64,000 nucleotides of DNA. Source: Candidatus Krumholzibacteriota bacterium. Lineage in GTDB: Bacteria > Krumholzibacteriota > Krumholzibacteriia > Krumholzibacteriales > WJIX01. Of the stretch, positions 11,032-39,429 are shown one piece after another (the first letter of the stretch is position 1; the number at the start of each line of letters is the position of its first letter). The stretch is from positions 372,001 through 436,000 of the forward strand of contig JAXHNR010000001.1 of NCBI GenBank assembly GCA_034520215.1, written 5' to 3'. Both the position numbers and the translations under genes were made by a program. The notes under the pieces are model-generated. The model worked only from the letters and a program-made list of their open reading frames with translations, made no database searches and was not told the DNA's origin.

Positions 11032-11154
11032 ATATTACCCTTCAGTTATGTGTTGAATTTTAATATATATGATTTTTTGTCTCTGTGAAACAGTTAGTCT
11101 GTTTTTTCCCGACTCTCTCTTTATAAATTCCGGTGGTTTTCCCCGCTGATGAGT

Positions 11155-11348
11155 GCGGCTGATTGATATTTTCAAAACCCTTCGGAGGGCGAGCGGGCAA
11201 GGATTTCTGGCCCGAAGGGGCAGAAAGAGCGAGCCCGAGGTGCAGAGCGTACAATTCCCTCGCCGGGGGAATTGACCACGATTTTGAAAATATCAATCAG
11301 CCGCATACTGTTACAAATCATCGACTACCTTATAGGTAATAAAAATTT
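11155..11348 (+). repeat. Interspersed structured repeat, copy A (shortened left arm)
   Basis: The core 11155-11304 is bounded by GCGGCTGATTGATATTTTCA and its reverse complement. Inside are the CCCTTCGGAGGG hairpin, the hairpin TTTCTG...CAGAAA, the conserved GAGCGAGCCCGAGG strand and the hairpin AATTCCC...GGGAATT. The right arm (11305-11348, ATACTGTTACAAATCATCGA onwards) matches copies C and E. The left arm is cut down to about 15 bases before the core and the terminal repeats are degraded. Located between the 5' end of the rhomboid gene and the LOG gene. A reading frame of about 78 codons crosses it on the minus strand, but I treat it as non-coding. Confidence 0.85.
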
Positions 11349-14379: not shown

Positions 14380-14583
14380 GGAGTTTCCCCAATTTTTATA
14401 ATCTATAAGGTAGTCGATGATTTGTAACAGTATGCGGCTGATTGATATTTTCAAAATCGTGGTCGATTTCCCCGGCGAGTAAACCGCACGCTCTGCGCCT
14501 CGGGCTCGCTCTTTCTGCCCCTTCGGGTCAGAAATCCTTGCCCGCTCGCCCTCCGGAGGGTTTTGAAAAAATCAATCAGCCGC
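14380..14583 (-). repeat. Interspersed structured repeat, copy B (minus orientation)
   Basis: Starts with the terminal repeat GGAGTTTCCCC (14380-14390), followed by the tail arm (14391-14433) and the core 14434-14583 in reverse orientation. Internal hairpins are recognisable but the third one contains mismatches (GGTTTACTC against GGGGAAATC). Beyond 14583 the other arm is strongly diverged: TTATTCCAGTTG... and TGTAACTAAT resemble the arm of copies D and E with many changes, up to about 14665. I found no clean direct repeat around this copy. Confidence 0.85.
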
Positions 14584-15166: not shown

Positions 15167-15279
15167 TGTATTGAAAGGCTGTTTATTCATTCAGAGCCCG
15201 GTGTTTGCCGGACGTAATAGATGAATTAATTAAGAGAGCAGCCGGGTGCGGCTGCTGAAGAAGGGTGTATTCAACTTGA

Positions 15280-16680
15280 TTATTTTCTGTATTTACTGAT
15301 GAATTCCTCTACTTCCGGGATTCCGCCCTGGTAAATGAGATACCCGTTATGCGGTTCCCGTTCGGTTATCTCGCCAGCGACCGGAGTGAGCATTATATCT
15401 TTAACCTCTTGCCTGTCTTTAGATTGGCCCAGGGCCCAGGCGAGTTTAACGTATGCCACTTCAGGCAGCATATTAGCCGCGGGTATTACTCCAAGGTCCA
15501 TGATATCGCGCCCCGTATCATAAACATACATCTGGACATATCCCCATAGAGTTTGTACGGACATATATATGTGTATACCCATATCGCACGCCTTTTTAAG
15601 AGAGGGATAGAGAGGCTTGTTAACGTGCCCGAGTCCCGTACCGGCAATTACAATTCCCTTGTAGCCGTTATCGATCAATGATTCTATAATATCAGGTTTC
15701 ATGTTGGGATAATAATAGACGATAGAAACTCTGCCATCGAAAGAGGGTATGATCTTTACCTTATTATCCTTTCTTCTCTTCTTGTAGTCGTTTCGAAGGG
15801 GGACGAAACGGTCTTTTTCTACCATGGCCAGCGGAATATCTCCTATGGTTCTGAAAGTCGAACGGTATGAAGAGTGCATTTTCCTGACTCTCGTGCCTCT
15901 GTGTAGAAGTCCGTACTGATCACTCGTCGGCCCGAACATACAGACCATCACCTCCGCGAAATCACTCCTCGCGGCTGTTTTTGTGGCGTTTATCAGATTT
16001 ATAGCCGCGTCGCTCGAGGGCCGGTCACTTGATCTTTGAGAGCCCACCATCACTATCGGAACGGGTGAATCCTGGACCATGAAAGAGAGTATGGCTGATG
16101 TATGGTGCATCGTATCCGTGCCGTGGCCGATCACAATACCGTCGATACCTTTTTCGATCTCTTCTCCTATTTTTTTTGCTGTTCCTATCCATTGCTCGGG
16201 ACCCATGTTTTCACTGAAAACCCCATAGAGTTTTTCCGTCTGGAGATTGCATATATCGGCAAGCTCAGGCACAGACCCGTACAATTCACCCGGAGAGAAG
16301 GCGGGAATAACTGCTCCAGTCCGGTAGTCAAGGCGTGAAGCAATTGTTCCCCCGGTGCCCAGCAGTTTAACGTTAGGTTTATCAGGATCGAAGGGAAATT
16401 CCTTTTCGGGAATTTTGTAGTGCGCTTCTTTTTTTCCGAGAACATTTATCGATGTAATTGTCTCTACGTTGAGACCCACATTGTAGCCGTTGTGTAATTT
16501 AAGAACTATATGATTGTCGTCCGCGGTTTCAGAGCGGGGCAGAATTATTCCTCTAAAATCACCCCTGGATGATTCTACGTCAACGTCACTCCAGACCGCG
16601 GCTGAGTAGTCTTTCAAACATCCCAGGGCTTCTCCTCTGTACCCCTTGTAAGTATTAGAATTCAGAACAGAACACCTCAC
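15280..16680 (-). CDS. gatD: Glu-tRNA(Gln) amidotransferase subunit D, archaeal type (asparaginase-like)
   Basis: 466 residues with the two-domain layout of GatD. A small N-terminal domain (1-95, starting YKGYRGEALG, with ILPRSETADDNHIVLKL) is followed by an L-asparaginase-type domain. Catalytic blocks are GTGGTIAS (108-115), GHGTDTMHHT (185-194) and PSSDAAINLINATKTAA (Lys near 234). GatD releases ammonia from glutamine or asparagine, and GatE uses it to amidate Glu-tRNA(Gln). Plain asparaginases lack the N-terminal domain, and the gatE neighbour settles the call. The start is GTG at 16680. It follows gatE after 171 bp on the same strand. This family is known chiefly from archaea, so its presence among bacterial genes is unusual. 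Confidence 0.9.
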   Translation of the reverse strand: MRCSVLNSNTYKGYRGEALGCLKDYSAAVWSDVDVESSRGDFRGIILPRSETADDNHIVLKLHNGYNVGLNVETITSINVLGKKEAHYKIPEKEFPFDPDKPNVKLLGTGGTIASRLDYRTGAVIPAFSPGELYGSVPELADICNLQTEKLYGVFSENMGPEQWIGTAKKIGEEIEKGIDGIVIGHGTDTMHHTSAILSFMVQDSPVPIVMVGSQRSSDRPSSDAAINLINATKTAARSDFAEVMVCMFGPTSDQYGLLHRGTRVRKMHSSYRSTFRTIGDIPLAMVEKDRFVPLRNDYKKRRKDNKVKIIPSFDGRVSIVYYYPNMKPDIIESLIDNGYKGIVIAGTGLGHVNKPLYPSLKKACDMGIHIYMSVQTLWGYVQMYVYDTGRDIMDLGVIPAANMLPEVAYVKLAWALGQSKDRQEVKDIMLTPVAGEITEREPHNGYLIYQGGIPEVEEFISKYRK

Positions 16681-16851
16681 TTCGCGTATTAAAGTCTTTT
16701 AAAGTTTAAATATTTCCTTTTCCCCCAACCGGTAATATAAATTAAAAGTGGAGGAAGTGGAAGTGAAAACAGGCATAATATTATGAAGTTTTGACCGTTT
16801 GCTGTCATGCCTTTGAAGTTATAAGGCAAAAATGTGTGTTTTGCCTTTCAG

Positions 16852-18777
16852 CTATTCTTTTAAAGTGGATATAAAGTTATCCACGATTTCAGAAGCTTTT
16901 TTCCCAGTTACCCTGCAGTTAAAATCCTCCATAACCTTCCCCATGAGGTAATTTCTCAGTTTCTCTTTTCCGATATTCGGTATTTTAACAGATTTTAATG
17001 ATTTCTTGATTTCACTTTCAGTGCTCTTGCCCTCAAGGAATGAAATTGATCGAATAGCTTCATCGGGTGAGACAGGATTTGAGGCGCATGTTTTTTCCAG
17101 CAGTATTGTCAGGAATTCAAAAGGAACTTTATTTTGCTCCATCTTTTTTAGTGTGGACAGAAAGATATCCCCGCCTATATTCGGGATCTTTTTACTTTTA
17201 AGAAGGGATCCGAGTCTTTCAAGAATAAAGAAAGCGAGCGCTTTATTGTCGAACGATGTTTCTCCTAAGGCTGAATTGAATAAATCCTTTCGGGGTGAAA
17301 TACTCATTCTTTCCGCTGTTTCTGAAGTCAGCCCGGCCTTTTTATAATTCTCTTGAAGTTCGGAGGGAGTCACGGGGAGAGTGCTTTTTATCCTTTTGAT
17401 TCTTTCTTCAGTGATAGCTAGCGGGGGAAGATCTGTGTCAGGATACATCCTGTTAGGCCCGGGCAGGATTCTCTCGAATCCAGTTGTTCCATCAGGAAGG
17501 GCCTGTCTTGTTTCGTTTGGAACGCCGGTTATCGCTTCTATGGCCCGTATTTTAATTTCTTCCGCGGCGGTCTCGACGTCGGTTTTATTTCCCCATACAA
17601 CAACTACAGCGTCGTTTTCCCCGCTCCCGAGTTTCTTTTTTGTCTTAGTCCATTCCAGGCTTGAAAATGTTTCGCCTTCCATATCAGAATGAGCAATGTT
17701 AGGCAGTATATCCAGGCATGCTATTACGCGAACACGATCCGAGATCTCTTTGCTAAAGGATGTTTCGGGCTGTGTTTTTCTTGACAGTATCCCCCGGTAT
17801 CCTTTCAGCAGAACGGCCCGTACTTCACCGTTTTTTCTCAGTGATTCGGCAGCGGGGTAGTATCGCGTGTTCTTTACTATGTCGGTTATCCTTTTGTTCT
17901 CGGAACGAAAGCTCTCTCTGGTTATATTTCTTCTTTTGAGTTCATCTGCGATATCGAGAAGAGACCGCTGACGAAAGGCCTCGTTGTGCACAAGGAGCGG
18001 AATCGCGGGTATCTTAGGCACCCCTTTTATTTCTACTCTTTTCCCGCCCTTTATTGAAACATTCACGTCCTGTCTGGCAGAGCCGATTCCCCTTCTTACT
18101 TTTCCCGTGGAACGAACCAGCCATCTTAGAATCTGAGCGATATCAGCCACTTCCCCGGGTGTTTTCATATCCGGCATTGTCACGCTTTCAACGAGAGGAA
18201 TACCAAGCCTGTCAGCTCTGTAAATCCTCTTGTGCCCGCTGTCGCTTATTTCTCTGCAGGCGTCTTCCTCCAGCCCCAATTGGATGATTCCTATCTTTCT
18301 GCCTTTATAGGGGATCGACCCATCCACGCCGAGAATTGTCGTTCTCTGAAAACCGGTGGGGATTGAACCGTCGAGGTATTGTTTTCTGGCTATATGTATC
18401 TCGCTTACAAGCTTGCAATTTAGAAGCATTGTGATCTCGAGAGCTATATCCAGGGCCTGCTCGTTGAGTTCAAAGGGGGGGGTGTCATCCATTTCGTATG
18501 TGCAAACGGTCTTATCGTCGATCTGGTAGATAATTTCTTTCTTAGTCTTGAATTCCATAAGCGCCGTACCGTCGTATTCTCCAAGTTCGGATAGTGTTGG
18601 TCTCATGTGACGGAGTATTTCAGCGTTATATTCATCCGTGTAGGAATCAACAACGGGGCAGCGGCAGAATAGTTTTTTTTCGGTTGAAAGCTGCTGGTGG
18701 ATTTCGAGTCCGCTCTTAAGACCGAGTTTGCTGTAATCCTCATCTGTAGTCTCGTCAAGGGTTTTTATTTCTGTCAA
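16852..18777 (-). CDS. gatE: Glu-tRNA(Gln) amidotransferase subunit E, archaeal type
   Basis: 641 residues, the length of archaeal GatE and longer than bacterial GatB (about 480). It begins LGLKSGLEIHQQLSTEKKLF with the FCRCP pair, continues with the GatB/E cradle (MEFKTKKEIIYQ, LEEDACREI, RLGIPLVESVTMPDMKTP, RQDVNVSIKGGKRVEIKG) and has the inserted AspRS-like domain (about 330-450) that separates GatE from GatB, ending ERILPGPNRMYPDTDLPP. A helical YqeY-like tail (about 480-641) binds tRNA. It activates Glu-tRNA(Gln) with ATP and accepts ammonia from GatD. It starts 22 bp after glnA, so glnA-gatE-gatD probably form one transcript. Confidence 0.93.
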   Translation of the reverse strand: MTEIKTLDETTDEDYSKLGLKSGLEIHQQLSTEKKLFCRCPVVDSYTDEYNAEILRHMRPTLSELGEYDGTALMEFKTKKEIIYQIDDKTVCTYEMDDTPPFELNEQALDIALEITMLLNCKLVSEIHIARKQYLDGSIPTGFQRTTILGVDGSIPYKGRKIGIIQLGLEEDACREISDSGHKRIYRADRLGIPLVESVTMPDMKTPGEVADIAQILRWLVRSTGKVRRGIGSARQDVNVSIKGGKRVEIKGVPKIPAIPLLVHNEAFRQRSLLDIADELKRRNITRESFRSENKRITDIVKNTRYYPAAESLRKNGEVRAVLLKGYRGILSRKTQPETSFSKEISDRVRVIACLDILPNIAHSDMEGETFSSLEWTKTKKKLGSGENDAVVVVWGNKTDVETAAEEIKIRAIEAITGVPNETRQALPDGTTGFERILPGPNRMYPDTDLPPLAITEERIKRIKSTLPVTPSELQENYKKAGLTSETAERMSISPRKDLFNSALGETSFDNKALAFFILERLGSLLKSKKIPNIGGDIFLSTLKKMEQNKVPFEFLTILLEKTCASNPVSPDEAIRSISFLEGKSTESEIKKSLKSVKIPNIGKEKLRNYLMGKVMEDFNCRVTGKKASEIVDNFISTLKE

Positions 18778-18799
18778 AGCGGTTCCTTTTCGTAAAATC

Positions 18800-20245
18800 C
18801 TAGCAGTCGAAATAGAGCTGATGTTCGTACGGATGGGGCCGGTTATTTATTTCTTCTATGTCCTGCTGGTTTTTAATACGGATCCAGTCTTCGATCATAG
18901 ATTCTGTAAAGACGTCTCCTTCCAGCAGAAAATTGTGGTCTTTCTCGAGAGCGCTCAGAGCTTCCCCGAGAGATGCCGGAAGCGGTTTGATCTTCTCTCT
19001 TTCTGAGGGTTCTAGCTCGAATACATCTACGTCGAAGGGTCCGAATCCGAGTTCTTCCGGATCAAGATTTTTCTTGATTCCGTCAATTCCGGCCATAAGC
19101 TGAGCCGCCATAGATAGATAGATGTTGCATGTAGCGTCCGGCGGGCGGAATTCAATTCTTTTCTGATTCGGGCCTGTGGCGTATTTCGGGATTCTTATTG
19201 CCGCTGACCTGTTAGCAAGAGAAAAGAAACTGTGAACCGGTGCTTCATATCCGGGAACAAGACGCTTGAATGAATTTGTGCTGGGGTTTGTTATGGCGAG
19301 AAGTGCCGGCGCGTGAATAAGGAGTCCTGCGATATACTGGTGTGCCAGTTTGCTCAGCCCCGCGTAACCCTCTTTGTTGAAAAAAACGGCTTCTTGGTCA
19401 TTGAAGAGATGCTGATGAAAATGCATTCCGTTCCCGGGCTCAGCGAATATAGGTTTTGGCATAAAGGTAGTCTTTTTACCAAATTCATTTGCCGTCATCC
19501 TCGAGAAGTACTTTACCATCATGGAGACATCGCCCATTCTGGTAATAGGACCTGATTCTATCTCTATTTCTACCTGCCCGTGGCCGCCAACCTCATGGTG
19601 GTGGTATTTGACGTCGATACCGCTTTCTTCAAGAAGAGTGACTATTCTGTCTCGAATATCCGAAAGTCGGTCTTCGGGGGGAAGGGCGTGGTAGCCTCCC
19701 GATTCGGTCAAGCCGAAATTGTCTTCGAACATCCCTTCAGATGGTATTAATTCGAACCCGCAGCTTGTTTTTGAATTGTCGACATATATGTCATCGAAGA
19801 TGTGAAACTCGAATTCCGGTCCCCACACAGACCGGTTGGCTTTACCTGTTGTGCCGAGATATTCTTCGGCTTTCCTCGAAATCAGCCGGGGATCTCTCGG
19901 AAACGGCTTTTTTGTGTCAGGTTCGACTATTCTGCAAATAAATGAAATTGTAGGATCCAAAGGGAAGGGATCTATAAAAATTGTTTCCGGATCAGGCAGC
20001 AGGGAAAGATCTCCCGACTCAATTGTCTTAAGGCCCGGGAAATTTGATCCATCGAATCCGACACCTTCCGAAAAGAGTCTTTCTCCGCATCTTGAGGCGG
20101 GAACAGTTATATGGTGCCACCTGCCGAGAAAATCGGTAAATTTAAGGTCAATATGTTTTATTGCATTTTTCTTAATCGTTTTTCTTATTTCATCAATTGC
20201 GGAAATGATATCGTTACCTCCATTCGATTGAAGCCTCGGCTTCAT
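18800..20245 (-). CDS. glnA: Type I glutamine synthetase
   Basis: 481 residues. Beta-grasp N-terminal domain with DLKFTDFLGRWHHITVPA, then the Asp-loop block EGVGFDGSNFPGLKTIESGDL. The active-site strand VWGPEFEFHIFD, HHHEVGGHGQVEIE, FAEPGNGMHFHQHLF, SLANRSAAIRIP and RIEFRPPDATCNIYLSMAAQLMAG follow in order. It makes glutamine from glutamate, ammonia and ATP. The usual adenylylation sequence (NLY[DE]LPP type) is not seen near the C-terminus, which suggests regulation by feedback or transcription. Immediately followed (22 bp) by gatE, so the enzyme that makes glutamine and the one that consumes it for tRNA are encoded together. Confidence 0.95.
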   Translation of the reverse strand: MKPRLQSNGGNDIISAIDEIRKTIKKNAIKHIDLKFTDFLGRWHHITVPASRCGERLFSEGVGFDGSNFPGLKTIESGDLSLLPDPETIFIDPFPLDPTISFICRIVEPDTKKPFPRDPRLISRKAEEYLGTTGKANRSVWGPEFEFHIFDDIYVDNSKTSCGFELIPSEGMFEDNFGLTESGGYHALPPEDRLSDIRDRIVTLLEESGIDVKYHHHEVGGHGQVEIEIESGPITRMGDVSMMVKYFSRMTANEFGKKTTFMPKPIFAEPGNGMHFHQHLFNDQEAVFFNKEGYAGLSKLAHQYIAGLLIHAPALLAITNPSTNSFKRLVPGYEAPVHSFFSLANRSAAIRIPKYATGPNQKRIEFRPPDATCNIYLSMAAQLMAGIDGIKKNLDPEELGFGPFDVDVFELEPSEREKIKPLPASLGEALSALEKDHNFLLEGDVFTESMIEDWIRIKNQQDIEEINNRPHPYEHQLYFDC

Positions 20246-20321
20246 AGGATACAGCCTTTTTTATATGGACTTTCAATATATTTGATAGAATGCCGCCTTT
20301 CAAGCAATAAAAATACGAGCA

Positions 20322-20355
20322 GAAAAAAAGCCGGAGGCGGTATTTCGCCTCCGGC
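20322..20355 (-). terminator. Rho-independent terminator of satP
   Basis: A perfect 10-bp GC-rich stem, GCCGGAGGCG (20330-20339) and CGCCTCCGGC (20346-20355) with a 6-base loop, followed on the minus strand by a T-run (20329-20322). It lies between the stop of satP and the start of glnA, which indicates that glnA has its own promoter. Confidence 0.85.
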
Positions 20356-20382
20356 CGCACATAACGGTTCCTATGTTAATAA

Positions 20383-25172: not shown

Positions 25173-25275
25173 TTCCTCACCGGGGAAATCGACCACGATT
25201 TTGAAAATATCAATCAGCCGCATACTGTTACAAATCATCGACTACCTTATAGGTTATAAAAATTGGGGAAACTCC
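25168..25275 (+). repeat. Interspersed structured repeat, copy C (right half only)
   Basis: Holds only the third hairpin (GATTTCC/GGAAATC), the right core boundary (TTTTGAAAATATCAATCAGC), the tail arm and the terminal repeat GGGGAAACTCC (25265-25275). The left half, including both other hairpins and the left arm, is missing. The point where homology stops coincides with the epimerase fragment (about 25168). Confidence 0.85.
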
Positions 25276-36399: not shown

Positions 36400-37095
36400 G
36401 CTCTGTTAATTAATATCCGTTCCGTCCCTTTTCCTCTTGGTAGGCAGAATGACCGAGCGGAGCTCCTTCTCATCCCGAGCGTTACTCCACTCTCTGCGGA
36501 AACCCAATTGTAAGAAATTCGATATTTTCTGTCAACAAGGAAAGTGCGTGGAGTTTCCCCAATTTTTATAACCTATAAGGCAGTCGATGATTTGTAACAG
36601 TATGCGGCTGATTGATATTTTCAAAATCGTGGTCAATTCCCCCGGCGAGGGAATTGTACGCTCTGCGCCTCGGGCTCGCTCTTTCTGCCCCTTCGGGCCA
36701 GAAATCCTTGCCCGCTCGCCCTCCGGAGGGTTTTGAAAATATCATTCAGCCGCACTCATCAGCAATGAAAGCCCTATTCCACTTACCAATCCTGATAACT
36801 GATTGTATCTCGCAATGTTATTACAATACTTGCCGGATTTTCGGGGAAACTCCTGGGAAAGTGCGGGTGGAGTGAGGTCAAATCAGAGTATACCTCGCCT
36901 ACCTTCTCTCAAGAGGCGACACAATTTACATTGAATCCGCCCCGCTTCAGATAAGCGGAGAGGTGCAGAGAGCCGGGGAGGAGGGTGATAGCGGGGAGGA
37001 GGTGGATCGCAGTAATTCCATAGAATCGGGGATCTGCACTGACAGCCTGGTTATAAACTTAAGCACATCCAGGACGATCTCATCACCGCCGGCGG
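36400..37095 (-). pseudogene. Decayed copy of the permease EIIA-like C-terminus, split by repeat copy D
   Basis: On the minus strand, 36425-36495 reads EWSNARDEKELRSVILPTKR, nearly the same as the end of the intact permease at 22924 (EEWSNAKNEKELRSVILLTK). Upstream at 37066-37086, DEIVLD matches RNEIVLD about 150 residues before the end of the intact protein. Between them lies repeat copy D with its 10-bp direct repeats. Order and strand fit one former gene; frames are broken and the distance without the repeat is about 100 bp short. The rest of 36870-37180 holds nothing I recognise. Confidence 0.6.
36550..36853 (-). repeat. Complete interspersed element, copy D, with terminal inverted repeats and 10-bp direct repeats
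   Basis: Runs from GGAGTTTCCCC (36550-36560) to its exact reverse complement GGGGAAACTCC (36843-36853), 304 bp. GGAAAGTGCG occurs at 36539-36548 and again at 36856-36865, one base outside the left end and two outside the right, as expected of a target-site duplication. The core (36604-36753) is in minus orientation. The long arm (36754-36842) matches copy E almost base for base. Inserted in the permease pseudogene. Confidence 0.9.
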
Positions 37096-39125: not shown

Positions 39126-39429
39126 GGAGTTCCCCCGAAAATTCGGCAAGTATTGGAATAACATTGCGAGATACAATCAGTTATCAGGATTGGTAAGTGG
39201 AATAGGGCTTTCATTGCTGATGAGTGCGGCTGATTGATATTTTCAAAACCCTCGCCGAGTGGCGAGCGGGCAAGGATTTCTGGCCCGAAGGGGCAGAAAG
39301 AGCGAGCCCGAGGCGGGAGTGGCGATTACCTCGCTGGGGAAATCGACCACGATTTTGAAAATATCAATCAGCCGCATACTGTTACAAATCATCGACTACC
39401 TTATAGGTTATAAAAATTGGGGGAACTGC
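39126..39429 (+). repeat. Complete interspersed element, copy E, with terminal inverted repeats and 10-bp direct repeats
   Basis: Runs from GGAGTTCCCCC (39126-39136) to GGGGGAACTGC (39419-39429), about 304 bp. AATGTAATTT is present at 39115-39124 and 39432-39441, a different direct repeat from that of copy D but of the same length and placement. Head arm 39137-39225, core 39226-39374 (GCGGC boundaries), tail arm 39375-39418. Its first hairpin is CTCGCC/GGCGAG where the other copies have CCCTCC/GGAGGG. Located between the MFS and ferritin genes. Confidence 0.9.

Follow-up and report, generated by a model that had tools for sequence, protein, structure and literature searches.

Archaeal-type GatDE behind glutamine synthetase in a Krumholzibacteriota genome belongs to a bacterial lineage present in several phyla

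GatDE is now described as restricted to archaea, and this distribution is used in scenarios of the last common ancestor (PMC9499178, PMC8007984). The archaeal enzyme, represented by the structures from P. abyssi (1ZQ1) and M. thermautotrophicus (2D6F), has two subunits, GatD, with a GatD_N domain and asparaginase domains, and GatE, with a GatB_N domain, an AspRS-like insert and a YqeY tail; it recognises the A1-U72 pair and the D-loop of tRNA-Gln (PMC9499178), whereas bacterial GatCAB reads U1-A72 tRNA-Gln (PMC9976931). The two enzymes share the reaction type and the catalytic domain that is common to GatB and GatE. In Deinococcus and Thermus, the retention of GatCAB is explained by asparagine synthesis. 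Along with Bdellovibrio, these bacteria keep the amidotransferase despite possessing both direct synthetases, AsnRS and GlnRS (PMC4206432); the genomes discussed below present a similar case, with the differences that the retained enzyme is GatDE and that AsnB is usual in those of them that lack GatB. Full-text literature searches, with subscription journals mostly outside their scope, did not return any description of GatDE in bacteria; such proteins may be listed already in protein databases, and no priority is claimed.

The DNA analysed here, hereinafter the window, is a stretch of 64,000 nt of contig JAXHNR010000001.1 (GCA_034520215.1, positions 372,001-436,000 of the forward strand) from a Candidatus Krumholzibacteriota bacterium, the genome of which (2.6 Mb, two contigs) is 97.3% complete. 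The window contains a minus-strand run that consists, in order, of glnA (18800-20245), encoding a type I glutamine synthetase of 481 aa (TIGR00653, 503 bits, cut-off 429), gatE (16852-18777; 641 aa), with a TTG start 22 bp past the glnA stop, and gatD (15280 to about 16665). Between gatE and gatD there are 171 bp if gatD begins at the listed GTG (16680) and approximately 186 bp if it begins at a CTG at 16665; the listed start is probably wrong because in genus mates (L012, L013) a TGA lies in frame just upstream, and, judging from these relatives, gatD probably starts at the CTG. Throughout the order, the gatD start appears to be CTG, sometimes TTG, behind a Shine-Dalgarno sequence (window 16660-16690, minus strand; L012, L013, L015, L017, L018, L016, L022), which in several relatives is extended (AGGTGATC) and complementary to the 16S tail. 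On the same strand, terminator-like hairpins are found upstream of glnA (20329-20356; 11 pairs followed by a T run) and just 3' of gatD (15237-15256), and promoter-like sites, each a consensus match only (10/12), precede glnA (20275-20303) and lie within the gatE-gatD gap (16780-16808). The latter predicted site may also allow gatD to be transcribed on its own. No Rfam matches were found at the locus.

The sequence-only reading had described an intact archaeal-type GatDE in a bacterial genome, with gatE 22 bp behind glnA in a minus-strand unit. The coordinates agree with this arrangement, and the identification stands, both proteins scoring well above the curated cut-offs: GatD reaches 520 bits with NF003217 (cut-off 310) and 519 bits with TIGR02153 (cut-off 324), and GatE reaches 552 bits with NF003107 (cut-off 456) and 471 bits with TIGR00134 (cut-off 319.6). 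GatD contains the GatD_N, Asparaginase N and Asparaginase C domains of Pfam, and GatE contains GatB_N. In contrast to bacterial GatCAB, the locus encodes no GatA or GatC partner, and GatE scores 160 bits against the GatB family, far under the cut-off of 338. Two parts of GatE are only weakly recognised in the window protein, namely the AspRS-like (GAD) insert (residues 281-420; 17518-17937, minus strand), which aligns with its counterparts in P. abyssi and M. thermautotrophicus, and the YqeY tail; of 46 relatives, 37 and 30, respectively, contain them. In the AlphaFold (AF2) model of GatE (mean pLDDT 87), the tail as a whole (helical part and YqeY; residues 466-641, 16855-17382, minus strand) is folded with high confidence, and the best PDB matches are the archaeal GatE structures 1zq1_C and 2d6f, ahead of any GatB. 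For GatD, the model is of lower quality (pLDDT 77), with archaeal GatD still the top fold match, and the best sequence matches of both subunits are likewise archaeal GatDE. Bacterial GatD carries, in addition, a conserved C-terminal extension (the last ~25 residues) that is missing in alignments to the two archaeal structures. In the comparison with archaeal GatDE, the GatE tail is ~21% identical.

Residues T112, T188, D189 and K267 of GatD, which we take to be catalytic by analogy with asparaginases, are kept, as are the GatE motifs GLEIH (from residue 23) and LEEDA (from residue 169), and the catalytic motifs of both subunits are invariant among relatives. Within the genus, dN/dS of the GatE catalytic domain is ~0.03, that is, strong purifying selection. 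The family scores, the domains, the archaeal first fold matches, the invariant catalytic residues and this selection are all consistent with a genuine bacterial Glu-tRNA amidotransferase that would provide a second route, for backup or repair and not the only one in the cell, adapted to U1-A72 tRNA; we would give this interpretation roughly an even chance, with activity, substrate and repair role as inferences. Under such a scheme, GatD, the asparaginase-like subunit, would free ammonia from glutamine or asparagine, and the ammonia would pass to GatE, which would phosphorylate the side-chain carboxylate of the tRNA-held glutamate and then amidate it.

The complement of the host genome is compatible with such a second route. 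Its profile search for GlnRS gave no match above the cut-off, only two GluRS, and because GlnRS is absent, Gln-tRNA synthesis must proceed in two steps. A complete GatCAB operon is located away from gatDE (C1:837.4-840.7 kb). The sequence-only reading had supposed that a complete GatCAB together with GlnRS would make GatDE redundant; the first of these is present and the second is absent, so that one half of this objection applies. Where GluRS of E. coli carries R350, the residue that rejects tRNA-Gln, host GltX1 has Asn and host GltX2 has Arg. A bacterial GluRS, most likely GltX1, would charge tRNA-Gln with glutamate, and an amidotransferase would then correct the Glu-tRNA-Gln, a step that GatCAB can perform and in which GatDE would act alongside it; in relatives that possess GlnRS, GatDE would repair occasional Glu-tRNA-Gln. 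Immediately behind the gene for GltX2 come tRNA-Gln(CTG) and tRNA-Glu(CTC) (L005 1375-3045, L128 149-311; G000:C1:451-453 kb), a pair of tRNA genes seen again within the genus and, beside a GluRS match, in UBP1 (L228, L230).

Both host tRNA-Gln have U1-A72 and G73, the bacterial pattern, and tRNA-Gln(UUG), where resolved in 20-odd relatives, has U1-A72, rows with other end letters being taken as boundary shifts of about one base. An archaeal A1-U72 tRNA-Gln travelling with GatDE was not found in the host or its relatives. U1-A72 is a trait of the host; it therefore puts the substrate of GatDE in question and not its homology.

Among 50 GatE-bearing genomes searched with curated cut-offs, GatB exceeded the cut-off in 26 and GlnRS in 40. 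All genomes without GlnRS have GatB except for G012, probably an incomplete MAG (G048 does encode GlnRS, in two fragments), so that GatDE as the sole route to Gln-tRNA is rejected for 49 of the 50. The presence of GlnRS or GatB in nearly every genome argues for a supplementary enzyme and distinguishes the bacterial system from the archaeal one, GatDE being found here beside GatCAB and/or GlnRS. Any GatB is missing from 23 of the 50 genomes, 22 of which encode GlnRS; of these 22, 21 have AsnRS and 18 have AsnB, and a role of GatDE in making Asn-tRNA in the GatB-less genomes is therefore unlikely. In a Caldithrix MAG (G021, L035) with GatDE and GlnRS, neither GatB nor AsnRS was found, probably due to missing sequence. 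The chromosome of one GatB-less genome, G039, is a single contig; gaps can nevertheless occur in scaffolds of this kind, as in G004, where an apparently split gatB is actually a scaffold gap filled with N.

Altogether, GlnRS, AsnRS and AsnB are all present and GatB is absent in about 17 of the 50 GatE genomes; thus, GatDE is, on paper, dispensable there for decoding both Gln and Asn, and yet it is retained. Furthermore, the GluRS of GatB-less genomes mostly carry the discriminating Arg, and given the presence of GlnRS and the other enzymes, little Glu-tRNA-Gln is to be expected in these cells. These observations speak against backup or repair and favour its main rival, a changed tRNA substrate, whereby the amidation chemistry is kept but serves another aminoacyl-tRNA or a purpose beyond ribosomal Gln-tRNA, with the tail reflecting altered recognition of the carrier. 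The persistence of GatDE beside complete standard routes poses a clear biochemical question, namely, which tRNA it amidates.

The pattern of conservation bears on the same choice. Across phyla, median pairwise identity is 77.6% for GatD vs. 53.9% for GatE, and the latter figure conceals a steep gradient: in bacterial GatE, median identity is 75.6% in the catalytic part, 49% in the insert and 21.8% in the tail, compared to 57%, 44-56% and 38-40%, respectively, in three archaea, and to 59% (catalytic) and 40% (tail) in GatB of GatE-bearing genomes, a partly different genome set. Within the genus, dN shows the same contrast, with 0.06-0.07 in the catalytic domain and 0.25-0.29 in the tail. These values suggest that the chemistry is tightly constrained whereas recognition has shifted or relaxed, although alignment of fast-evolving helices may exaggerate the contrast between catalytic domain and tail. 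The weak conservation of the tail, which reads the D-loop in archaea, counts against backup or repair and for a changed substrate; the bacteria-only extension of GatD also favours a changed substrate. Conversely, the tail retains its YqeY-type fold, and the analysis found neither another substrate nor a linked gene or an unusual tRNA, tRNA genes occurring near gatDE in two (L043, L068) of 60 loci. We consider a changed substrate less likely than backup or repair. A similarly modest probability applies to a further reading, in which GatDE of the FCB-group phyla and Aminicenantes is a distinct bacterial lineage whose catalytic core is ultraconserved and whose tRNA-reading tail changes freely; it would no longer supply Gln-tRNA for decoding but would amidate a different aminoacyl-tRNA or keep watch over mischarged tRNA. 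Residues 55-102 of GatE (window ~18472-18615, minus strand), the segment LRHMRPTLSELGEYDGTALMEFKTK, are near-invariant across bacterial GatE; the middle of this segment (residues 59-77), which lacks structure when GatE is modelled as a monomer, is perhaps the contact with GatD.

An archaeal-style division of labour in the host, with GatDE producing Gln-tRNA and GatCAB producing Asn-tRNA and hence asparagine, appears unlikely. The search for AsnB in the host genome found none, and the combination of AsnRS and GatCAB without AsnB indicates that asparagine may be made on tRNA; together with the absence of GlnRS and the parallel of Thermus and Deinococcus, where GatCAB is kept beside AsnRS (PMC4206432), this speaks for such a division. 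However, AsnRS is present in the host, both tRNA-Gln have the U1-A72 pair that bacterial GatCAB can read (PMC9976931), and the GatB-less genomes would be left unexplained.

A scan with one genome per species yielded 300 confirmed relatives. By record label, the best 80 of the 300 belong to Latescibacterota, Krumholzibacteriota, Fermentibacteria/Aegiribacteria, KSB1, Calditrichota, Neomarinimicrobiota, Ignavibacteria, Chlorobiota, Kapabacteria, Bacteroidota and Aminicenantes/Acidobacteriota, with single records labelled Deltaproteobacteria and Kuenenia. Within the host phylum, gatE is present in 42 of 46 near-complete genomes, and it is patchy in the phylum of G039 (9 of 40), whose GatE clusters with Calditrichota. 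In a tree of 42 bacterial and three archaeal GatE with GatB as the outgroup, the bacterial sequences form one clade (SH-aLRT 85) and the archaeal sequences another (99), although, with only three archaeal sequences and long branches joining at the root, the deep direction is unsettled. Branching inside the bacterial clade largely follows host phyla, Aminicenantes falling within the Ignavibacteria group. Judged from these sequences, bacterial GatDE is probably an old bacterial lineage rather than a recent private transfer. Such a lineage in several phyla contradicts the archaea-only statement and bears on the origin of the direct and indirect routes to Gln-tRNA.

It is very improbable that the locus arose as the sequence-only reading had it, by a recent functional transfer from archaea to a place behind glnA, with the product of GlnA feeding tRNA amidation directly. 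The absence of GlnRS from the genome is in line with a functional transfer; the complete GatCAB, and a single bacterial GatE clade that stands beside the three archaeal sequences and roughly tracks host phyla, are not. The spacing of 22 bp and the adjacency of glnA and gatE kept within the order would favour direct feeding, for which no specific evidence was found, but free glutamine is a diffusible metabolite and other phyla keep GatDE without linkage to glnA. Independent assemblies labelled Latescibacterota, Krumholzibacteriota and UBP1 share the order glnA-gatE-gatD, which is often preceded by folE, and glnA-gatE adjacency is nearly confined to the order of the window (Krumholzibacteriota/Latescibacterota/UBP1 relatives plus L091), whereas gatD and gatE are adjacent in nearly all of the 80 loci wherever the contig extends, across phyla. 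No third conserved neighbour of gatDE was found beyond one order or phylum. An assembly chimera or archaeal contig contamination, which we checked for and in favour of which no point was found, has practically no probability, because the window lies within a 1.57 Mb contig and independent assemblies of relatives keep the same flanking order (folE, glnA, gatE, gatD, menA), gatE being, moreover, present in most near-complete genomes of the phylum.

Searches of mobile elements detected no GatE in viral contigs and, among plasmids, one archaeal GatE, the remaining top matches being GatB-type. This unannotated gene of a Natrinema plasmid (L164 4007-5841) is in two reading frames, from a frameshift or a sequencing error. 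The window itself contains five copies of a dispersed repeat (11154-11305, 14434-14583, 25182-25221, 36604-36643 and 39336-39375); the two copies inspected are ~150 bp long, with inverted ends of 23-24 bp, and are MITE-like.
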